Shown here: positions 2 to 16,785 of the stretch, piece by piece
Layout of the letters: the number at the start of each line of letters is the position of its first letter
How positions within the stretch are numbered: position 1 is the first letter of the stretch
NCBI GenBank assembly: GCA_028285205.1
Contig: JANQQA010000252.1
Location: 1-64,000, forward strand
Source: Bythopirellula sp.
GTDB taxonomy: Bacteria > Planctomycetota > Planctomycetia > Pirellulales > Lacipirellulaceae
Length of the DNA stretch: 64,000 nucleotides
Reading direction: 5' to 3'
Translations under genes and position numbers: made by a program
Notes under the pieces: model-generated
The model's input: the letters and a program-made list of their open reading frames with translations, nothing else
The model's database searches: none
Told to the model about the DNA's origin: nothing

Positions 2-826
2 TTCGTCGAGCAGCAAGCTGTTTACGACTTGCCCGGCGACGGAGATGCGGCGAACATCACCACCGCGCAGCGACAATCCGCTGTCGTCATGCAGGCAACG
101 CCGATCCCTACTTTCAATTGCCCCTCGCGCCGCGCTTCGACAGCCACACCGTTCGCATTAGGAGCCGCATGGCGACCCAAGAATTCCGACCTGCCCGATG
201 TCGTTGCCCGTGCTGACTATGCGGCCAACGCCGGTGATGGTTTTCCGGAATTCGGAGGCGGTGGTGGCCTGCAAGCCTATATCGTCGACGAGCCGTGTAA
301 GCCCGGTGTACAGAACAAGTTCGAAATCATCTTCCCGCCCTTTAACATTTTCGGGAACTATGATCTGATCGACGGCGGATTGATGCCCTACTGCTATCCC
401 AGTGAGCGAACACAAACAGGTGTCAATTTTCTCGGCGCGGAGATCCGTCTCGTTGAGATCACTGACGGTTCGGCCAATACGGTCATGGTTGGCGAAAAGT
501 ATCTTGATCCACAGGAGTACGAAGGCGCGGAACAGGGACAGGCAGCCGGTGCTGACGACCACAGCATGTACGGCGGATTCGACTGGGACTTGAACGTCTG
601 GGGCGGCGGCGACGAGACGGTCGATCCGGCGGTAGAGCGATTTCGACCCTACCAGGACCAGATCGGTTGGAAGACATCCGGGAATTATGGCAGTGCACAT
701 CCGGGCGTGTTTCACACCACGTTCTGCGACGGTTCCGTCAGAGTACTTAACTTTGACATCAATCTGAACACTCTTGCCAATCTCTGCGATCGCGCCGATG
801 GCCAAGCAATTGGCGAAACCAATTGA
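2..826 (+). CDS. DUF1559 (pilin-like, SBP_bac_10) protein, 5' end cut off by the window
   Basis: The reading frame is already open at the left edge, so the N-terminus is missing; in this family it carries a type IV pilin-like N-methylation segment. About 274 residues are visible. The C-terminal motif SAHPG...CDGSVR, followed by a short beta tail, is the hallmark of the DUF1559 family, which is greatly expanded in planctomycetes and thought to form pseudopilin-like surface or secretion components. An internal segment reading ITDGSANTVMVGEKY also fits the family (usual form DG.SNT...GE). The stop codon overlaps the ATG of the next gene by one base, so the two are probably co-translated. The family call is firm; the molecular role is not known. 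Confidence 0.9.
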   Translation, partial: FVEQQAVYDLPGDGDAANITTAQRQSAVVMQATPIPTFNCPSRRASTATPFALGAAWRPKNSDLPDVVARADYAANAGDGFPEFGGGGGLQAYIVDEPCKPGVQNKFEIIFPPFNIFGNYDLIDGGLMPYCYPSERTQTGVNFLGAEIRLVEITDGSANTVMVGEKYLDPQEYEGAEQGQAAGADDHSMYGGFDWDLNVWGGGDETVDPAVERFRPYQDQIGWKTSGNYGSAHPGVFHTTFCDGSVRVLNFDINLNTLANLCDRADGQAIGETN

Positions 827-1518
827 TGGGCGAGTTTGGCCGACACATGCTGCAGGGAAACAGGTTCAACTTGCAGCGCAATACAAGGACCCGGCGAGCC
901 GTGCGTTTTGGTCTTGCAACGTTACTGCTTGTCTTTGTAGCCATGGCGGGTTGCGGCGATCCGTCTGCGTTGCGTCCGCCGGACGTCGACCCAGCGGCCG
1001 CGGCTGCAGCCGCGATGGAACAGTATGATACAAATGGCGATGGCTTGCTCTCCGCCGGTGAGTTGGAGAGTTGCCCGGGGCTTGCGAAGATGATTAAGGC
1101 CTACGATAGCGACACAGACGGCTCCATTTCAGAAGCCGAACTTGCCTCCCGCATACAACAATTTGTTAGCAGTGGAGCCGCGTTGGTTCCGATGAGTGTG
1201 AATGTGCTACTCAACAAACGTCCTCTATCTGGAGCTACGGTAAGATTCGTCCCGGAAAGCTACTACGGGGGGGCAATCAAGGCAGCGGTGGGCACAACGG
1301 CCAGTTCCGGAGCAGCCCGTATGGCCGTTCCGGCGGAAGACCTGCCAGAGAATCAACAGAATCTCAAAGCGATTCAGTTCGGCACGTATCGCGTCGAGAT
1401 TACGCACCCACAAGTCAAGCTCCCAGCGAAGTACAACACGGAAACGACACTGGGCTTTGAGACCGTGCTGGGACAGCCAAATGCCGAGTTTCGCCTGCAA
1501 AGCTCGGGAAGCAACTAG
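826..1518 (+). CDS. EF-hand lipoprotein with C-terminal beta-sandwich domain
   Basis: The start ATG shares its A with the TGA of the DUF1559 gene, which favours this start over the TTG three bases upstream. A positively charged N-terminus and a hydrophobic stretch end in a lipobox (AMAGC, Cys about residue 43), so this is a predicted lipoprotein. Two EF-hand loops follow, DTNGDGLLSAGE and DSDTDGSISEAE (about residues 65-110), both with the acidic residues needed for calcium. The last 110 residues (VLLNKRPLSGATVRF...YRVEITHP) look like the small transthyretin/carboxypeptidase-regulatory beta-sandwich often found in planctomycete lipoproteins beside DUF1559 genes. It probably acts with its upstream neighbour at the cell envelope. 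Function is unproven. Confidence 0.85.
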   Translation: MGEFGRHMLQGNRFNLQRNTRTRRAVRFGLATLLLVFVAMAGCGDPSALRPPDVDPAAAAAAAMEQYDTNGDGLLSAGELESCPGLAKMIKAYDSDTDGSISEAELASRIQQFVSSGAALVPMSVNVLLNKRPLSGATVRFVPESYYGGAIKAAVGTTASSGAARMAVPAEDLPENQQNLKAIQFGTYRVEITHPQVKLPAKYNTETTLGFETVLGQPNAEFRLQSSGSN

Positions 1519-1646
1519 TGCTTCATATTACTGCAGAGCACATTATTTGACACCTACGATCACATCAACTAACGTCAAATTGACGCGCCGGCTATCGAAG
1601 AACTTCTGATAAGGCAGCGTCAATGTATCTTGAAGAGGGCGGTACG

Positions 1647-2759
1647 ATGAAACGTAATCTTTCCCAAAAATCAGAGGCTCGCCTAAGCAGCTATCTCACC
1701 TCGGCAAGTGCATTGGGAGCAGCCGCAGCAGCCTCAAGCTTCTCTACGGAAGCCAACGCGGCGATCGTTGCCAACACGACCTCGATCCCATTCGGCATCA
1801 ATGAAGAAGTTAACATCGACTTCGATGGCAATGGATCGATCGAGTTTCAACTCGACCATGACCGCGTAAATATCGACGGCACAGACTACGACTTTTTGCA
1901 GATCGACAAGAACGATACCACCAGCGCCGCAGATCCCCTGAGTGGTCCAGACGATGCGTTCGCTACTTTTCCGGGAGAGTTCTTCCCCGTCCGCGCCGAC
2001 TACACCGGCGACGGAGTAGGCAGCTGGGACCAAGCGGACTTGCAAGCGTGGCAAAACGAATACGGCTCGATAAACGAAGACCCGGAAAATCCCACATTCT
2101 TTGCTGACGGTAATGATGACGCGGCGATTAATGGCACCGATTACTTGATCTGGCAACAAGAGGCCGGCGTGCCTTTTTCGTACGACCAAGGCTACCTGAC
2201 GGATTCGTCAGAGTCGTATCCGACTGCGTTGACAGCGGGCACGTCGATTGGCCCTACGGACTTCTTCACATTCCAAGAGGGGTCAAACTTCAGCGGTACC
2301 GGCTTGGCAATTCACGCCAACCGTTTGATTGACGAAGACGCGGGGACCATCGATACGGCTAACGGCGTCCCGGCCTTTCCAAATTCCGATACGTCTGAGT
2401 GGGTGGGGCTCGGTGGCGAGACGCGCTACCTCGGCCTCCGCTTCGACTTGGACGATGAGGGCTACGCTGGCAACGAATTCTCGGGCAGCAACAATGGCGA
2501 GGGCCTGCCAGACGAACCGTCAAACTACTGGTACGGCTGGGTTGGTGTGCAGATCACCAACGAGGCCGACGCGACCGGCGTTGTGACCGGCTGGGCGTAC
2601 GAAGATCAGATTGGCACCGCGATCATGGCCGGCGACACCGGAGTTCCACCACTCGGCGCTGTTCCTGAACCGACTTCCATCGTCACCCTTGCGTTGGGCG
2701 GCATCACATTGGCGAGCGGATTTGCCTGGCGCAAGCTCTTCCGCGAGAGCTCAGTGTAG
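1647..2759 (+). CDS. PEP-CTERM protein with internal dockerin-like calcium repeats
   Basis: The ATG at 1647 follows a purine-rich GAAGAGG about 8 bases upstream and gives a better N-terminus than the in-frame ATG at 1623. The N-terminus (YLTSASALGAAAAA...NAA) resembles that of the next gene. The first beta-rich part has an Asp/Asn-rich loop (DFDGNGSIEF). Around residues 110-175 there is a pair of dockerin-like loops (ADYTGDGVGSWDQADLQAW and FADGNDDAAINGTDYLIW) that the tandem paralogue lacks. The C-terminus has VPEPT, a hydrophobic segment and basic residues (WRKLFR), a PEP-CTERM sorting signal. It is likely exported and processed by an exosortase such as the one at 31.6 kb. A perfect short inverted repeat (CGTCAA-A-TTGACG, 1573-1585) lies in the upstream region. 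Confidence 0.88.
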   Translation: MKRNLSQKSEARLSSYLTSASALGAAAAASSFSTEANAAIVANTTSIPFGINEEVNIDFDGNGSIEFQLDHDRVNIDGTDYDFLQIDKNDTTSAADPLSGPDDAFATFPGEFFPVRADYTGDGVGSWDQADLQAWQNEYGSINEDPENPTFFADGNDDAAINGTDYLIWQQEAGVPFSYDQGYLTDSSESYPTALTAGTSIGPTDFFTFQEGSNFSGTGLAIHANRLIDEDAGTIDTANGVPAFPNSDTSEWVGLGGETRYLGLRFDLDDEGYAGNEFSGSNNGEGLPDEPSNYWYGWVGVQITNEADATGVVTGWAYEDQIGTAIMAGDTGVPPLGAVPEPTSIVTLALGGITLASGFAWRKLFRESSV

Positions 2760-2983
2760 AGCGGATTCTCACAGGCGAAAGTTGATCGATCAAAGCTAGA
2801 TTTCCTGCACATCGAAGGCGAAAGCACCTCATTTCAGTCCTTTTTTATTGACGATTGTGTTCTGGCTTGGGAAACTGGAGTTACTTGTCACAGCTCACAC
2901 TTCCGCATGCTGGGAACAATCGACTTCGTGCTTTCCAAGCACGTAACCCGGCCCGATCTATTTAATTTTTGTGGAGTAGTCTA

Positions 2984-3823
2984 ATGACCCGAACATCAAA
3001 GTCCTCTCTTGATTCTCGCGCCGATTCTTCGGCACGCATCGACGGCAAACTTGCCGCTTATCTCGCTTCGGCAGGCGCTATGTCGCTCGCCATGACCTCC
3101 GACGCTGACGCAGTCGTCGTGGGGCAGAACACCAGCATTCAATTTGGCCCCGCCAACGGCGGCCCAGGCAACATCGATATCCCCATCGATCTCGACAACG
3201 ATGGCGAAATCGATTTCTCACTGAATCACAGGTCGAACTCGCTCGGCGAAGACTACTTGGAACTCGACAAGGGTCCCACGGACAGTACCGACTTCCCAGA
3301 CGTCAACGGGGACGGCAACAACCAATCGTGGCGATACTTGGAAGATTCGGCTGGATCGTACCCGAATCCTTTGCTCGTTGGCGAATCAAGCGGCACGGTC
3401 TTGGCTCCACCTGCAGGCTTGACCTATGAATCGTGGCAGGACACCGACGACTATCTCGGTGGCGGCACCACGCGTCGCGCCAACCGGTTGATCGACTACG
3501 ATTCCGGCGTCGATGAAGCTGGCACGTGGGATTCACCGTCGGGCAACGGCAATTTCCTCGGCAACGAAGGTGTTGACCAGTATCTGCCGTTCCAGATCGA
3601 GTTTGACACCTCGACTCCCGCAGTCAACTACGGATGGATTGGTGTGAACATCAGCGACGATGCCACGGCAAGTGGCGAACTGATTGGCTACGCCTTCGAA
3701 ACTGACCCGCTGACGCCGATCACGATGGGAGTTGTGCCTGAGCCCGGTACCATGGCTCTCGCCGCACTTGGTGGCATTACCTTGGCTGGCTCATGGGTAA
3801 CTCGAACCTTCCGTAGAAAGTAG
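2984..3823 (+). CDS. PEP-CTERM protein, tandem paralogue of the preceding gene
   Basis: The ATG at 2984 has a GGAG about 8 bases upstream. The N-terminus (LAAYLASAGAMSLAM...DADAVVVGQNTSIQFG) parallels the preceding gene, as do the beta-rich core (DLDNDGEIDFSLNH), the RRANRLIDYD motif and a YGWIGVNI segment near the end, so the two are tandem duplicates. The copy here lacks the dockerin-like loops. The C-terminus is VPEPGTMALAALGG followed by a hydrophobic stretch and RTFRRK, a clear PEP-CTERM signal. A 7-bp hairpin with a TCC loop (2927-2943) sits 40 bases before the start and could affect the leader, though it has no T-run. It is probably exported and anchored or released at the surface. Its ligand is unknown. 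Confidence 0.88.
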   Translation: MTRTSKSSLDSRADSSARIDGKLAAYLASAGAMSLAMTSDADAVVVGQNTSIQFGPANGGPGNIDIPIDLDNDGEIDFSLNHRSNSLGEDYLELDKGPTDSTDFPDVNGDGNNQSWRYLEDSAGSYPNPLLVGESSGTVLAPPAGLTYESWQDTDDYLGGGTTRRANRLIDYDSGVDEAGTWDSPSGNGNFLGNEGVDQYLPFQIEFDTSTPAVNYGWIGVNISDDATASGELIGYAFETDPLTPITMGVVPEPGTMALAALGGITLAGSWVTRTFRRK

Positions 3824-3838
3824 TAACGCAACCTCAAC

Positions 3839-5821
3839 GTGGCCTCCTCCGATCCAACAGCATCAACACGCACAGCAAATCGCGTCCTGCTCGTTGGCTT
3901 AAGCGGAGTCGAATGGTCGCTGTTGACATCTTCGATTGAAGCGGGAGGGCTGCCAACATTGGCAGCCCTCCTGCGTTTTGGCGTGTCGGGGACGCTGGCG
4001 GCGCCTGCCCCGGCAGTCGAACCGGCGTTGTGGACTTCGCTAATCACGGGACAGCACGCCCACAAACATGGCGTGTTGCACGCGTATGAGCCGCATGGCA
4101 GCGGCCGCGGCACTGCGCCAGTTACGCGTCCGACGGTGAGGACGGCCACCCTCGGCGCGATCCTTAGCGCTGCTGAGCTGACCGTCAATCAGATTGGCTG
4201 GCCGGTTTCCCATCCGGTCGAGCAGCTGCGCGGTGTTGCCGTCAGTGATCGTTTTGCGCTCGAGGGACGAGGAGACTCGCTTGGGAGCGCGGGGGGCTGG
4301 CCCTGGGTGACCCCACCGTCCGCGGCAAAGGAAATCTTCGCCCGGCGTCGTTCACCCGCCGATGTCGAACACATGTCCCTTGCGCAGCTCCTGCCAACGG
4401 ATCGCTTCTCCCAACCGCGGTACCGGGGATTGCAAGAGGCGTGCCGTATGATACTAGCTGAGTCGCAGACGATCTTCAGCGCAACTAGGTGGACGATGCA
4501 GCGCAACTCGTGGGATTGCACGCTGTGTGCCTTCCCCGCAATTAGCCGATTGCGCCAAGCTCTCACCAACGTGCTTTCGCCGGATGAAGTTCAAGTCCTC
4601 GGCCCTTCCATCCTTGCCGGATGCTACGAACACGTCGATATGCTGTTGGGGCAGTTGATTGCCGCCGCAGGCACTGACGCGACCGTCTTGTTGGTTGGCA
4701 CGGGTAGTTCCAGATCCTCGCACCCGCGACTGGTACTGCGCCGGCCGAAGCAAGATTCGGCCGCAAGCTTGCCAAAAAACGCCAGTGTGCTTGACGTAAC
4801 GCCAACCGTGCTCGCGTTACTTGGTGTTCCGGTCGCGGACGACATGGACGGGCGGGTGTGGACGGACTTGATCTTCGACGATGAAACCTCTGCCTGCGAT
4901 CTTCCTCAAACCGTCGATACATGGAACACGTGCATCCATCCACCGCCTGCCATGCCCCGCGATACGACTCCGGACGAGGAGCCACCCGTCGATGACTCGG
5001 TGCGGCACCTCGTTGAACTTGGCTATGTCGACCCCTGGGATGCAAAGGCCAAACAGCAAGCGGAAGATTGCCGACGGGACACTCGAAGAAACCGTGCCGT
5101 CTCGCTGATCGACGCGGGGCTGCATGACGAAGCCATCGAGGAATTGCAGCAGCTTAAGTCTGACTTCCCAGACTGGCCCGCACCATCCGAACTGTTGGCG
5201 GAATCCTACTTGCAGCGTGGTCAAGTTACCCAGGCCGCACGAGAACTGGAGTATTCGATCCATCACGGAATGGAAAGTGCCCGACTGTACTTCGCTCTGG
5301 GACGAATCGCCGCCGCACAGCGCAAGTGGGACGAGGCATTGTTGCATTATCATGTCGCCCAGCGTCTATCAGAAAGCCTGCGTGGATTGCAGTTGGCCCG
5401 CGGCCTGGCTTTGCTGCGGCGGCGTGACTTTGCGTCGGCGGAAACCACACTGCAACAGGCGTCGGAAACCGAGGGCCGAACACCACAGCTCCTCGACGCA
5501 CTCGCCGTCTGCAACCTCGCCAAAGACGATCACGCACAGGCGGCTGAATACGCGCTTGAGTCGATTGATCACGACGTGAGCTACGCACCAGCACATTATC
5601 ACCTCGCTCTAGCGCTGGTGGGCATGGGGCGCGCGGCGGATGCGAAGCAGGCGTTGGAGCTGAGCGCGACGCTCGATCCAACGTTCGTCGCGCCCTGGCG
5701 TTGGCTCGCGCGACTTTGCCGAGAACACCTTGATGATCACGTGCGTGCAAACGAGTACCAGCGCCGAGGACGAGAGCTCATTCGACAGCGTCGCCAGACC
5801 CGTCAAGCAGACAATGCATAA
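3839..5821 (+). CDS. Type I phosphodiesterase/alkaline phosphatase-fold protein with C-terminal TPRs; metal ligands apparently lost
   Basis: It starts at GTG 3839, 13 bases after the previous stop. Residues 1-340 follow the layout of phosphodiesterase/nucleotide pyrophosphatase proteins: an N-terminal strand (RVLLVGLSGVEW), LPTLAALLRFG, the LWTSLITGQ.AHKHGV block, a Y.HVD.LLGQL helix, and VLDVTPTVLALLGVP...DMDGRVW. The metal-binding aspartate usual in the first strand (G.DG) is serine here, and the usual DHG motif reads GTGSSRSSHP, so catalysis looks doubtful. Residues about 400-650 are TPRs. Planctomycetes and other bacteria have many active phosphatase-TPR fusions; this one may be a scaffold. 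It has no obvious signal peptide. It runs 44 bases into the convergent GNAT gene. Confidence 0.82.
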   Translation: MASSDPTASTRTANRVLLVGLSGVEWSLLTSSIEAGGLPTLAALLRFGVSGTLAAPAPAVEPALWTSLITGQHAHKHGVLHAYEPHGSGRGTAPVTRPTVRTATLGAILSAAELTVNQIGWPVSHPVEQLRGVAVSDRFALEGRGDSLGSAGGWPWVTPPSAAKEIFARRRSPADVEHMSLAQLLPTDRFSQPRYRGLQEACRMILAESQTIFSATRWTMQRNSWDCTLCAFPAISRLRQALTNVLSPDEVQVLGPSILAGCYEHVDMLLGQLIAAAGTDATVLLVGTGSSRSSHPRLVLRRPKQDSAASLPKNASVLDVTPTVLALLGVPVADDMDGRVWTDLIFDDETSACDLPQTVDTWNTCIHPPPAMPRDTTPDEEPPVDDSVRHLVELGYVDPWDAKAKQQAEDCRRDTRRNRAVSLIDAGLHDEAIEELQQLKSDFPDWPAPSELLAESYLQRGQVTQAARELEYSIHHGMESARLYFALGRIAAAQRKWDEALLHYHVAQRLSESLRGLQLARGLALLRRRDFASAETTLQQASETEGRTPQLLDALAVCNLAKDDHAQAAEYALESIDHDVSYAPAHYHLALALVGMGRAADAKQALELSATLDPTFVAPWRWLARLCREHLDDHVRANEYQRRGRELIRQRRQTRQADNA

Positions 5822-6695
5822 GTAACATCCGACGGGTTTCCACACCGCCTAGCATCTCGCTAAATGCACGTGTATCGGCGTAGTGGTCGAAGGTGCTATA
5901 AATGAAGCGCTCGATGCCCAACTTCATCGCCCCACGTGTCGCCTCCAGCTTAAGCCACAGATTCGCCCAGCCACCGCGAACGTCCGGAGCCAGGATGTTT
6001 GCGTCCACGACCGCAACTTGCTTCGACTCACGATGTGCAAGGATGCAGCCCTTCACCGTGCCGCTTACAACCAACACACGTGAGTACAGCGGATGGTACG
6101 GTTCAGGTCCCTCACCATGCATCTTGCGAAGCAACAGACTTCGATTCCCACCGAGCTCGCTCAAGTGCAAGTCGGCCACCGACTCACGGTCTGAATCGCA
6201 CAACGCGATAATTGCCGCATCGTCAGGGATTGCCCCTTTCTGCCGCATCCAATCGTAGAGCGGCGTTAGACGCGACTCGATCGCGGCGAGCGCCAGCTCG
6301 TGATAAACAACAGTTTCTAGCGGCTTAAATCCGAGCCAGCGCCAACCAATTTCCTCTTCAGTCCCGGCGGCGATCTTCTGGAGCGCGTAAAACGCCTCTG
6401 TCGGTGTGTCCAACGCCTGCTGTTTCAGCCGATTGAGCAACGCAGAACCGATGCCACGTCGGCGCCAGGTCGGGATCACGTGCAGCGCTACGCCCGGCCC
6501 AATCGGTGGTTTGGAGCGAACCGACCGTGTGATTGCTGCTGCGCCAATCACAAGGTTGTCGTCCGACACCGCGACCATCCGGATTGACGCATCGCCGACG
6601 GTGGGCAGCAGCATACGAAAAGCCTTGGCATCGGATGATTGCGCAGGGCGGAGAGAATAGCTCTCAGCATCGCTAGAGTCTGCGCTAGACGGCAT
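5778..6695 (-). CDS. GNAT-family acetyltransferase, probably with two GNAT-like domains
   Basis: The N-terminal half (about residues 10-130) has the acetyl-CoA-binding motif A, HVIPTWRRRGIGSALL, typical of GNAT proteins. The second half has similar strand-helix spacing (VLVVSGTVKGCILAH, then ATRGAMKLGIERFIYSTF.HYADTRAF), suggesting a tandem GNAT arrangement with a degenerate second domain. The gene begins 6 bases after the stop of the DUF1501 gene, so it is probably the last gene of the minus-strand GH92 operon. Its 3' end overlaps the end of the convergent phosphodiesterase-TPR gene. The substrate cannot be read from the sequence. Confidence 0.85.
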   Translation of the reverse strand: MPSSADSSDAESYSLRPAQSSDAKAFRMLLPTVGDASIRMVAVSDDNLVIGAAAITRSVRSKPPIGPGVALHVIPTWRRRGIGSALLNRLKQQALDTPTEAFYALQKIAAGTEEEIGWRWLGFKPLETVVYHELALAAIESRLTPLYDWMRQKGAIPDDAAIIALCDSDRESVADLHLSELGGNRSLLLRKMHGEGPEPYHPLYSRVLVVSGTVKGCILAHRESKQVAVVDANILAPDVRGGWANLWLKLEATRGAMKLGIERFIYSTFDHYADTRAFSEMLGGVETRRMLLMHCLLDGSGDAVE

Positions 6696-13846: not shown

Positions 13847-15037
13847 ATGTCAGCGCACTCCACCAATAGCGGCAATCAAGAAAACCCAAGCACTGACCAG
13901 CCGATGTACCGGCAGATCTTCGAGACGATTCGGACGAAGATCTGGCAGGGACTCTACACCCCGGGAACCAAGCTGCCGACCGAGGCGGAATTGATGCAGC
14001 ATTTCGCTGTTTCGCGTACTACCGTGTCACGCGCTATGCGCGACCTGGAACAAGCCGGCTTGGTCAGCCGGTGTCGTGGTTCTGGTACCTACGTCAAAGA
14101 ACTGGCGCGGGAGAATGAAGTCGTCCGACTGTCTTTTTTGGTTCCGTGGGTGGAATCGGATGAGCGTTTGCCCTACGTCGAAGGCCTGATCTATCAGCGG
14201 ATCGCCCGACTCGCAAGTGAAGGGGGCAGCTCTATCTCGCTGCATTGCTTCGACACCGACAGTCTTGATGTGCGCTCTGGCATGCTCAATGCCGCGCAAA
14301 AGGTTATTGACGACAAAATCAACGGCGTGCTGTATTACCCGGCTGAGTTGCCGCAGGAAAAGATGCACATCAATCGTGAGATCGTCGACAAGCTGACGGC
14401 CGCTGGCATTCAGGTGGTGCTCGTCGATCGCGACATCGCGCCCTACCCCGATCGCAGCGAGTTCGTTCGCATCGGCTACGACAATCGTCGCAGTGGCACG
14501 ATCCTGACAAATCACTTGCTCGAACAAGGTTGTCGCAGAATTGCATTCATCGGTATTCCCGAAGATTCAACGGCCGTCACCGACCGTATGCTAGGTTATC
14601 ACGAGGCGCATCAACAGCACGGCCTTCAGATCGACCCCGCCCTCATCCGAGTTGCCCACGAAGACGAACTTGATCTTGAGTTCTGCCGCAAGCTGATCGA
14701 AGAAGCGAGTCCCGATGCGATCGTCGCTAAAATGGATCGCTACGCAGCGCTGATTGGACGCCAACTCAATTTATTGAGACTTCAGATCGGCAGCGATATC
14801 AAACTTGCCGGCTTCGACGACGATCCCATCTCCGAGTTGTTGGCGATGCCGTTGACTACGATTCGATTGCCCGTCGAACCGTTTGCCAGCGCAGCCTACA
14901 AGGCGATTTTACAATGCGTGAAGGAAGACGACCTCCTACAACAGCAGGTGATAATTGACACGGAACTGATCGTGCGCGATTCGACAAAGCCAGCCAAAGC
15001 ATCGGGAGCTTCCGCAAGTCTTCCGTACCTCAGCTAG
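13847..15037 (+). CDS. GntR-type winged-helix regulator with LacI-type sugar-binding domain
   Basis: Residues about 20-90 are a GntR winged helix (YRQIFETIRTKIWQG, PGTKLPTEAELMQHF, SRTTVSRAMRDLEQAG, RGSGTYV). From about residue 100 to the end it matches periplasmic-binding-protein-like effector domains of the LacI/AraR type (LLVDRDI.PY..., DNRRSGTILTNHLLEQGCRRIAFIG, LAGFDDDPISELL, PLTTIR). This DNA-binding plus effector layout is known from AraR of Bacillus. It is divergent from the GH92 operon and lies 83 bases upstream of the esterase gene, so it probably represses one or both until a sugar binds. Sugar specificity is unknown. Confidence 0.92.
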   Translation: MSAHSTNSGNQENPSTDQPMYRQIFETIRTKIWQGLYTPGTKLPTEAELMQHFAVSRTTVSRAMRDLEQAGLVSRCRGSGTYVKELARENEVVRLSFLVPWVESDERLPYVEGLIYQRIARLASEGGSSISLHCFDTDSLDVRSGMLNAAQKVIDDKINGVLYYPAELPQEKMHINREIVDKLTAAGIQVVLVDRDIAPYPDRSEFVRIGYDNRRSGTILTNHLLEQGCRRIAFIGIPEDSTAVTDRMLGYHEAHQQHGLQIDPALIRVAHEDELDLEFCRKLIEEASPDAIVAKMDRYAALIGRQLNLLRLQIGSDIKLAGFDDDPISELLAMPLTTIRLPVEPFASAAYKAILQCVKEDDLLQQQVIIDTELIVRDSTKPAKASGASASLPYLS

Positions 15038-15120
15038 ACGGGTTCGCACATAGGAGCGGCAAACCGACTCGCTTCGTTGTCGAAGTCTTTACCTAGCCAA
15101 CCGTTTAGGAGCCTCCCAAG

Positions 15121-16785
15121 ATGGAACGACTGCTATATTGCGCTCTGACAATTGCCGTGCTCAGTGAATCGGTGGACGCGAAGGTATCGCTAACGCTCGA
15201 AGCGCAGCCGATTGCCGTAAGCACGACCAAGTACACAGCAAGAATCGAGCCCGACGGATGCCTGACCCAGCTCAAGATCGGCGGAATCAATTACCTTGCT
15301 CCTGGCGTTAGCATTTCGCGCGGCTCGTATTTCTTTCAGAACGGTGCCCTCAAACTCGACGACGTGAAGCGAGTCGCTGACAACGTCGTCGAAGCGGGAA
15401 ATGACCAAGCTGCGATCCGCTACGAGTTTGCAGACCAGCAGCTCGTCGCGCGTGTCACCAACAAGTCGGCGACGGAGATGGTGTTCTTCGTGGTGCTCAA
15501 CGGCTTGGTCGGGGCGGTGTCGCTAGACGATGGTCAGATTCAGCAGACAGCAGTTACCGGCAACTACACTGCGGCAGATTTTTTTATCGACCGGCATCGT
15601 CTAAGAATTGAAGGCTTCGACAAACTTTGGGGCCCCTGGCAAGGTCCGCATCAGGTTGTTCAAACCACGCTCAAGGCTGGCGAAAGTCGAACCCTCACCT
15701 TCCAACCGCAGGACGCGACCGAAGCGGAAAGACTGCGGGTCTTGAGTTTTAAGTCTGCGCCGCCGGAGGGGGAACTAACCGTCAGTTCACCCCGTGACTA
15801 CCAAGTCATCCAACGCACGACAAGGGAATCGGGACGGGTGCTAATCAGCGGACGAACGAAAACACCTGCTTCCGAAATCAAGATTCGAGTCGTGGGCGAG
15901 GATTTACCGGACGAAGTGCAGAGCTGGCGGAAAGTCGCAATTAACGGTCAGACTCGCAAATTCAGCCAGTGGCTTGTGCTCCCCGCCGGCGGCTGGTATC
16001 GCCTGAAAGTTGCGGCTATCGCTGGTGATACGACACTGGCCGAAACGGAGGTCGAGCACTTCGGAGTCGGCGAAGTCTTCGTCGGAGCCGGACAGTCGAA
16101 TTCGACCAATTGTGGCCAGTTCACGACGAAACAGACCAGCGGCATGGTTTCATCGTTCAGCGGAACGAATTGGCAGATTGCCGATGATCCGCAGCCGGGC
16201 GTGGCCGATCGCAGCCAGGGCGGCAGTTTCTGGCCAGCGTTCGGTGACAAGCTGTACCTTGAACTGGGCGTCCCGATTGGCGTTGCGACGACCGGCTACG
16301 GCGGCACGAGCGTCAATCAATGGCAGCCCGATGGGGATCTGTTTCAGAGGTGGTTCATGACGCGTGTACACCAGCTCGGCCCCCAAGGGTTCCGCGCCGT
16401 GCTCTGGCACCAAGGAGAATCCGATGTCAACATGGCTCCAAATGAGTACCACGCCAAGTTGAAAAACACCATCCTGTCATCGATCTCGCAAGCCGGCTGG
16501 GAGTTCCCTTGGTTTGTCGCCCATGTGTCCTACCACAACCCGGAGCAACCGCGTTTCGAGTCCGTACGCGGTGCCCAACAGCGTATCTGGGACGAAGGCA
16601 TCGCCGAGCCAGGGCCCGACACAGATGTGCTAACGGGTGACCATCGCGACTTCGAAGGCAAAGGAATTCACTTCAGCCCGAAAGGACTAAGGGCACATGG
16701 GGAGATGTGGGCTGACAAGCTGCTGCCGTACGTCGAGGCGAAGTTAGCCGAGAACTCAGAAGCGGCGATAGTGCCCAACCGCTGA
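15121..16785 (+). CDS. SASA-type carbohydrate esterase (sialate O-acetylesterase-like), secreted
   Basis: The ATG at 15121 follows AGGAG about 8 bases upstream. The N-terminus has a weak signal-like segment ending around VDAKVS. Residues up to about 310 are beta-rich. The SGNH-hydrolase domain starts at VFVGAGQSNSTNCG (nucleophile Ser about residue 325) and continues with TGYGGTSVNQW, the LWHQGESDVN block and GIHFSPKGLRAHGEMW, which holds the catalytic His. This is the pattern of the SASA (DUF303) family of acetylesterases acting on sialate or xylan. It probably removes acetyl groups from a glycan attacked by the neighbouring GH92 enzyme. It ends 12 bases before the end of a convergent gene. 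Confidence 0.87.
   Translation: MERLLYCALTIAVLSESVDAKVSLTLEAQPIAVSTTKYTARIEPDGCLTQLKIGGINYLAPGVSISRGSYFFQNGALKLDDVKRVADNVVEAGNDQAAIRYEFADQQLVARVTNKSATEMVFFVVLNGLVGAVSLDDGQIQQTAVTGNYTAADFFIDRHRLRIEGFDKLWGPWQGPHQVVQTTLKAGESRTLTFQPQDATEAERLRVLSFKSAPPEGELTVSSPRDYQVIQRTTRESGRVLISGRTKTPASEIKIRVVGEDLPDEVQSWRKVAINGQTRKFSQWLVLPAGGWYRLKVAAIAGDTTLAETEVEHFGVGEVFVGAGQSNSTNCGQFTTKQTSGMVSSFSGTNWQIADDPQPGVADRSQGGSFWPAFGDKLYLELGVPIGVATTGYGGTSVNQWQPDGDLFQRWFMTRVHQLGPQGFRAVLWHQGESDVNMAPNEYHAKLKNTILSSISQAGWEFPWFVAHVSYHNPEQPRFESVRGAQQRIWDEGIAEPGPDTDVLTGDHRDFEGKGIHFSPKGLRAHGEMWADKLLPYVEAKLAENSEAAIVPNR

Follow-up and report, generated by a model that had tools for sequence, protein, structure and literature searches.

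What is left for a phosphodiesterase to do once its catalytic residues have gone? This question is raised by a gene in the 64,000-nucleotide stretch of Bythopirellula sp. DNA analyzed here (contig JANQQA010000252.1; referred to below as the window), which encodes a phosphodiesterase (PDE)-fold domain followed by a tail of tetratricopeptide repeats (TPRs) and which starts 16 nt past the end of a PEP-CTERM-like gene (Table 1). The Pfam family Phosphodiest (PF01663) matched residues 16–287 of the 660-amino-acid protein with 43.8 bits (cut-off, 23), and Pfam TPR families matched inside residues 419–616, in agreement with an initial annotation that had described a PDE fold with TPRs. A PDE domain, a linker with the motif LGY and a TPR tail are present in one chain, the combination by which we define the PDE-TPR family; the LGY of the linker was at least 90% conserved among 56 family rows, and its L8, G9 and Y10 were invariant in an eight-row alignment (A1). 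No signal peptide was evident on reading of the sequence, without a signal-peptide predictor. The same genome also encodes an intact PDE-TPR paralog (G000:C307:19377), with all seven of the catalytic positions defined below, on another contig.

Seven positions, corresponding to the ligands of the two metals and the nucleophile, were scored across PDE domains of the window, of relatives and of named genomes, a set of 128 rows with 117 distinct sequences. In PMC6052110, D168, T206, D326, H330, D373, H374 and H483 of rat NPP3 are given as strictly conserved zinc ligand or nucleophile residues. All seven positions were intact in 103 of the 117 distinct domains and degraded in 14, and their loss is therefore not a habit of the family. 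The window protein retained none of them in the alignment (S, E, S, Q, T, G and a gap), or one at most if His295 corresponds to the last His, a position that falls in a gap, with the loop bearing it shortened. The changes of the first-strand Asp to Ser (GLSG) and of DHG to GTGSS that had been pointed out in the initial annotation were both exact, and the loss reaches at least six of the seven positions. Each of the two congeneric orthologs retained one of the seven, the first Asp, and an assembly error is therefore unlikely; one of these orthologs is that of Bythopirellula polymerisocia Pla144 (L091, a locus also designated L036). These congeneric orthologs lack Glu61 as well as a His at the last position and have Glu25 in common. 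A check for alternative ligands, by inspection of the window protein sequence alone, revealed no clustered set of Asp and His residues left near the site.

A structure model of the window protein was obtained with AlphaFold2 from a 56-row alignment (predicted local distance difference test score [pLDDT], 89.5; predicted template modeling score, 0.89) and was compared with known structures by VIA-align. Given that the Foldseek list was topped by TPR structures, the PDE fold was judged from the VIA-align list, in which PafA (5too) was the best match (Z 25.9 over 302 residues; root-mean-square deviation, 3.3), with SPAP (Z 25.4), ENPP3 (Z 24.7) and XacNPP (Z 24.3–24.4) also matched; the TPR part matched MamA in the same program. 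An intact relative from Botrimarina colliarenosi, modeled as a control (pLDDT, 90.5), likewise matched PafA best (Z 28.4), and the dead protein therefore keeps the fold in prediction. A sequence search of PDB with the window protein returned TPR proteins below E 0.01 and ENPP7 at E 0.067. When a PDE-TPR profile was aligned to an XacNPP chain, the first Asp, the nucleophile column and DHG coincided; that chain, which we take to be a nucleophile mutant, has Ala in the nucleophile column. With at least six ligand or nucleophile positions lost, the loss shared by three species (zero or one of seven residues kept) and the fold retained in the model, the window protein is almost certainly a pseudoenzyme, as had been proposed at the outset.

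We compared the corresponding locus among relatives, whose loci and genomes are designated by L and G numbers, respectively. A DUF1559 gene, an EF-hand gene, two PEP-CTERM-like genes and a gene X follow one another in L035, L036, L056, L058, L070 and L084, with one extra gene on the opposite strand inside this order in L035 and L036; in L057 and L083, the DUF1559 gene sits instead beyond the gene for a GNAT-family protein. The dead PDE-TPR gene occupies the position of X in three Bythopirellula genomes, and its 3' end is overlapped by the convergent GNAT gene. In nine genomes from four other Lacipirellulaceae genera, X encodes TPRs only (open reading frames of 269–424 amino acids) and retains the linker LxxLGYxDP. 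A gene of the exported partner family described below lies upstream of the TPR-only gene in all nine, and the GNAT gene is directly convergent beside it in six (L055, L056, L057, L058, L059 and L083), 1.2 kb from it in L084 and 4 kb from it on the same strand in L070, whereas the 4.7-kb contig of L085 ends there and carries no GNAT gene. A tenth TPR-only match (L060 in G005, same genus), which was weaker and lacked the LGY motif, was excluded from this count. A profile of the TPR part built from eight proteins detected 12 of 43 genomes of the family at E <1e-80, four of them outside the profile; GNAT was found at E <1e-70 in 11 of these 12 and in none of the other 31.

Trees were built for the two halves separately. 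The TPR tree, from which 12 rows lacking LGY (including L041_13919, L086_5707, L069, L042_2732 and L060) and four short rows were left out, placed the nine TPR-only proteins in one clade (support, 100/98) that grouped with the dead Bythopirellula trio (100/99), with the trio itself unresolved. Outside this group (100/98) was L092, a degraded PDE-TPR protein (three of seven) from a Phycisphaerae genome whose gene also abuts a GNAT gene. With a degraded PDE-TPR protein as outgroup, the tree is explained more simply by loss of the domain than by its gain, and the order would be decay followed by deletion; we therefore rejected the idea that Bythopirellula acquired the PDE domain. In the PDE tree (61 chosen rows, without L071, L072, the second of the L162 genes, duplicates and the majority of nonplanctomycete rows), the dead trio formed a clade (100/100), its next relatives being degraded L092 and L069 (96/85) and then L041 and L086 (96/77), with the intact tandem partners of the latter two joining after the degraded copies (100/98). 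The joins around the dead clade involve long branches, and its placement is unsure. The comparison suggests that the PDE domain decayed at this locus and was then deleted in sister genera, with the TPRs being kept. The catalytic domain is thus seen at three stages (intact in paralogs, dead and deleted) around one conserved locus, and the role of the noncatalytic half can therefore be asked directly.

Several other loci carry degraded copies. In L041 (12522–16000) and L086 (4280–7626), a TPR-like gene and two PEP-CTERM partners are followed by a tandem of an intact short PDE (474–477 amino acids, seven of seven) and a PDE-TPR gene with six or five of the seven residues, and then by a convergent GNAT gene; this cassette resembles a relative of the window locus in which decay is less advanced. 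Degraded PDE-TPR copies (zero to three of seven) are also found within about 6 kb of intact ones in L042 (2732–7680), L046 (7653–12431), L037 (6554–15993) and L038 (5311–14223). These losses apparently are separate from that in the window, and the arrangement suggests paired active and inactive copies. L071 (7443–10835), from another family of the order, encodes a degraded PDE protein of 1130 amino acids (one of seven), which itself also gives a weak match to the GNAT profile (E 9e-5).

The two halves of the protein were also compared between the two other Bythopirellula genomes, with one dead and one intact pair. The dead protein was 57% identical in its PDE part and 63% in its TPR part, whereas the intact PDE-TPR protein of the same two genomes was 85% and 68% identical, respectively; constraint has therefore shifted from the PDE part onto the TPR part. 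The initial annotation had proposed a scaffold or a sensor. The nine TPR-only genes and this shift of constraint argue indirectly for a scaffold, and no evidence was found for a sensor.

The two genes directly upstream encode exported proteins of one family (A and B in Table 1). They had been described as PEP-CTERM genes, and both ends do resemble PEP-CTERM; the nearer protein, B, exceeded the cut-off of PF07589 (25.3 versus 20.7 bits) and fell below that of TIGR02595 (13.0 versus 16), whereas A fell below both (16.4 and 14.9 bits), although a PEP motif, a hydrophobic stretch and a basic end are visible in it. With a PEP-CTERM pattern of our own, which gave no match among 1150 proteins shuffled once each, a PEP-CTERM gene was found on the same strand within 1.5 kb upstream of 35 of 44 PDE genes at loci of the family and order, compared with 6/44 downstream of PDE genes and 31/393 other genes. 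At wider named loci, the corresponding counts were 22/77 upstream, 3/77 downstream and 7/363 other genes.

Members of the partner family have in common an unusual N-terminus (consensus KRLAAYSAAAGAAAFALASEADAAVVYSGVQDI) and the body blocks D-x-D-x-DG, YGW and AYE...IxAG. A hidden Markov model (HMM) of the N-terminal motif matched 55 of 70 cassette PEP-CTERM proteins (its training set) and 15 of 31 proteins in a wider set, or 8 of 20 after removal of copies of training genomes. Beyond these, 4 of 58 remaining PEP-CTERM proteins were matched, as were 39 of 1004 genes of other kinds, and many, not all, of these 39 adjoin PDE-TPR genes in Bacteroidota. There, the same partner body adjoins PDE-TPR genes with a type IX secretion system (T9SS) type A tag, TIGR04183 being passed by four of the five proteins scanned. 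Partners with such tags stand beside intact PDE-TPR genes at L094 (8575–9420), L126 (8640–9464), L121 (4970–5848) and L138 (6394–7230). One Nitrospirota and one Halioglobus member passed PEP-CTERM models, and scans of partner proteins with Pfam and NCBIfam gave export tags alone above cut-off. Given that intact PDE-TPR genes also adjoin this exported family, the PEP-CTERM neighborhood is the key observation at the locus.

Linkage was assessed with an iterated HMM of the whole partner, whose 179 raw matches included five reversed decoys (best E 1e-6; the three shown are reversed partner proteins). A partner was present within 3 kb on the same strand for 38 of 45 PDE rows at order-level loci, 59 of 83 at wider loci and nine of nine TPR-only genes; conversely, 142 of 169 partner matches had a PDE-TPR or TPR-only gene at this distance and in this orientation. 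Searches of genomes that took no account of gene neighborhood agreed with this linkage. Among the 43 family genomes, the partner and the TPR/PDE-TPR profile were each detected in 27, with both in 25, neither in 14 and each alone in 2 (Fisher p 1.6e-7), and 44 of 56 partner loci, read by hand after clustered matches were merged, adjoin a PDE-TPR or TPR-only gene. Among 294 genomes of the phylum, the partner was present in all seven with a PDE-TPR match at E ≤1e-130 and in 2 of the other 287 (p 1e-12), and the two genes adjoin in five of the seven genomes with both.

The explanation that we consider reasonably probable is that the window protein serves as a cytosolic TPR adaptor or chaperone for the precursors of the surface proteins encoded upstream, with the pseudo-PDE domain being vestigial or structural. 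From the gene neighborhood, the TPR protein is likely an adaptor for products of neighboring genes, and we think that the TPR superhelix is its working part. The superhelix would bind the precursors of the two exported partners in the cytosol before export, probably at their unusual conserved N-terminal segment; a cytosolic site is proposed because no signal peptide is evident in the sequence. In intact relatives, the target of the presumably catalytic PDE domain would be either the bound precursor or a bound cofactor, whereas in this lineage catalysis would have been lost first, in Bythopirellula, and the dead domain then deleted in other genera. Why the activity became dispensable could point to the substrate of the uncharacterized PDE-TPR family.

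A wider and more tentative proposal, toward which we incline slightly less than away, is that PDE-TPR proteins and their partners form a two-part module shared across phyla. The PDE-TPR protein, in the cytosol, would recognize the partner N-terminus (KRLAAYSAAAGAAA...ADA-AVVYSG) through its TPR superhelix and process or chaperone the partner before export, the tag being interchangeable by phylum (PEP-CTERM/exosortase or T9SS) and the catalytic step having become dispensable, dead and, in sister genera, deleted in the lineage of the window. Tyr44, Arg162 and Asp180 of the partner (numbering of L037 5780–6439), which are altered where the PDE is dead, would then be contact or target sites for the enzyme. 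Of 102 partners of intact enzymes, 73 have Tyr, Trp or Phe immediately after the putative signal segment, compared with no Tyr and one Phe among 21 partners in the dead/TPR-only clade, and a Tyr within the signal-like segment is retained in all 21. In a column-by-column control, 64 columns reached 50% conservation or more among partners of intact enzymes, and 18 of these drop below 25% in that clade; given that 17 other conserved columns fell together with it, the Tyr near the mature start was rejected as a single substrate site and its loss is treated as a lead only. Tyr44, Arg162 and Asp180 were also low (24–35%) in a further 17 partner rows, partly copies of one another, from other degraded lineages. 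On either proposal, surface proteins with PEP-CTERM and T9SS tags would have an apparently so far unrecognized partner, and handling of their precursors in the cytosol would become testable in cultured planctomycetes and Bacteroidota.

Several observations weigh against a dedicated adaptor for these partners. A recognized partner within 3 kb on the same strand was lacking for 31 of the 128 PDE rows, and 12 of the 56 partner loci in family genomes lie beside neither a PDE-TPR nor a TPR-only gene. The genes are also nonadjacent in two of the seven phylum genomes with both, G142 and G354, where they are separated by about 9 kb or lie on different contigs, and at one of the two G145 loci; G142 and G354 could help to distinguish functional dependence from simple linkage. 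In ten phylum genomes whose PDE matches are weaker (E of the best, 1e-115 to 3e-90), the partner is missing; the threshold of 1e-130 was chosen after the list had been seen, and inclusion of all 17 genomes gives p 1.9e-8. Absences in the phylum are soft because four PDE and nine partner candidates were scored per genome, and the co-occurrence tests ignore phylogeny and hence shared descent. Finally, the numbers of nonsynonymous (dN) and synonymous (dS) substitutions per site in the dead protein were 0.35 and 1.9 for the PDE part and 0.27 and 2.3 for the TPR part, with dS near saturation; this apparent constraint means that the pseudo-PDE domain may be doing something of its own.

Such a role, in which the domain would bind a ligand as a sensor or pair with the intact paralog to regulate it, the TPR tail being secondary, is an unlikely alternative. 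The intact paralog is kept in the same genome, blocks such as GWPVSHP and VSDRFA are conserved in all three dead orthologs, and elsewhere degraded copies lie a few kb from intact ones (the L041/L086 tandem, L042, L046, L037 and L038). The paralog of the window protein, however, is on another contig, nine orthologs at the matching locus have dispensed with the domain, and conservation within the dead protein is higher in the TPR half. It is improbable, in our estimation, that partner linkage reflects only co-regulation within a surface-layer or matrix regulon, with the TPRs serving another client such as the GNAT protein. The partner and PDE-TPR genes co-occur even where they are not adjacent (G142 and G354), and in Bacteroidota, proteins that combine this partner body with another export tag are encoded next to PDE-TPR genes, even though all six distinct GNAT-abutting PDE-TPR genes are degraded, no intact row abuts GNAT in the stretches examined and a sugar-use module is close by. 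An enzyme with other chemistry or an alternative metal site is very improbable: two acidic residues, Glu25 and Glu61, do lie close to the former site, and His295 may correspond to the original seventh ligand, but both Asp/His pairs are gone, the loop of the last His is shortened and the congeneric orthologs, which share Glu25, lack Glu61 and the last His. That the gene is a functionless decaying copy, as the long branches of the dead clade might suggest, can be given hardly any weight in the face of full-length open frames (660–690 amino acids) in three divergent species, a conserved gene order and dN of 0.27–0.35 versus dS of 1.9–2.3 between the two closest orthologs.

The adaptor that we favor has partial counterparts among known systems. 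The window protein shares its fold and Pfam match with NPP/type I phosphodiesterases (PF01663; XacNPP and human ENPPs) and with PafA, but it lacks the seven zinc ligand or nucleophile residues and an evident signal peptide and has an added TPR tail. Intact PDE-TPR proteins of Planctomycetota, Bacteroidota and others have the same architecture and mostly the same LGY linker and partner-family neighbor, but keep all seven residues and, in the one pair compared, have the PDE half as the more conserved. As a TPR protein genetically linked to PEP-CTERM genes, the window protein resembles PrsT, the TPR lipoprotein of the XrtA/PEP-CTERM system. PrsT is reported to have a lipoprotein signal sequence (PMC1569441), and prsT to lie downstream of pepA and to be needed for floc formation (PMC9850573); the window protein, in contrast, has a PDE fold and no evident signal sequence. 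PrsT (TIGR02917) was rejected as a name for the TPR part (40.3 bits versus a cut-off of 312.2). The TPR part can also be likened to designed TPR superhelices and to MamA, which it matched, and the name MamA (NF040959) was likewise rejected (44.5 bits versus a cut-off of 200); no magnetosome genes were seen among the listed neighbors. Pseudoenzymes and PEP-CTERM-linked TPR proteins are thus already known kinds, the latter exemplified by PrsT (PMC1569441 and PMC9850573). Among the open-license papers searched, none was found that joins PEP-CTERM and PDE-TPR proteins or that describes their combination, an erosion series at one locus or the linkage of PDE-TPR proteins to the partner; the words "phosphodiesterase," "alkaline phosphatase" and "pyrophosphatase" are absent from the text of PMC1569441.

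Table 1 Coordinates of the pseudo-PDE-TPR gene, its parts and its neighbors in the window
Feature	Position	Strand	Basis or remark
DUF1559-like gene, upstream neighbor	2..826 (open at window edge)	+	Position and likeness to L035 gene (Pfam on L035 gene)
EF-hand protein, upstream neighbor	823..1518	+	Gene lists of relatives' loci
Exported partner-family protein A, PEP-CTERM-like end	1623..2759	+	Partner HMM E 4e-43; N-terminal motif E 5.6e-6
Exported partner-family protein B, PEP-CTERM	2969..3823	+	Partner HMM E 4.4e-41; N-terminal motif E 9e-13
Pseudo-PDE-TPR gene	3839..5821	+	Open reading frame, 660 codons, GTG start; AlphaFold model pLDDT 89.5
Alkaline-phosphatase/NPP-fold domain, catalytic residues lost	3866..4906 (residues about 10-356)	+	PF01663; PafA Z 25.9 over 302 residues
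Ser22 (GLSG) replacing first metal Asp of G-x-D-G/A	3902..3904	+	Alignment
Glu61 replacing Ser/Thr nucleophile	4019..4021	+	Alignment
Ser236...Gln240 replacing metal D-x3-H	4544..4558	+	Alignment
GTGSS (residues 287-291) replacing SDHG(F)	4697..4711	+	Alignment
Linker motif VRHLVELGYVDP	5000..5035 (residues 388-399)	+	Retained in TPR-only orthologs
TPR tail	5042..5815 (residues about 402-659)	+	Pfam; model; MamA Z 22.6 over 175 residues
GNAT-family protein, convergent, overlapping 3' end of pseudo-PDE-TPR gene	5778..6695	-	Frequent neighbor at matching locus

The GNAT protein encoded beyond the pseudo-PDE-TPR gene has a conserved DHYxDTRxF-like motif close to its C-terminus. The six distinct PDE-TPR genes that abut a GNAT gene retain 0, 1, 1, 3, 5 and 6 of the seven residues, and in the stretches examined the nearest intact rows are the tandem partners in L041 and L086, about 2 kb off. 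A phylum search at E 1e-40 found GNAT in 3 of 392 genomes, that of the window included, and GNAT was rejected as a general companion, the two other genomes having no PDE gene beside it within 16–19 kb. L069 has a GNAT-like gene with a weak match (E 1.7e-5) at a distance of 6 kb. A sugar-use module is situated near the cassette both in the window (13847–16785) and in L035 (11392–13623); a GntR-type regulator with a sugar-binding domain is present in both, with a sialic-acid-type esterase in the window and a BadF/ROK-like kinase in L035.

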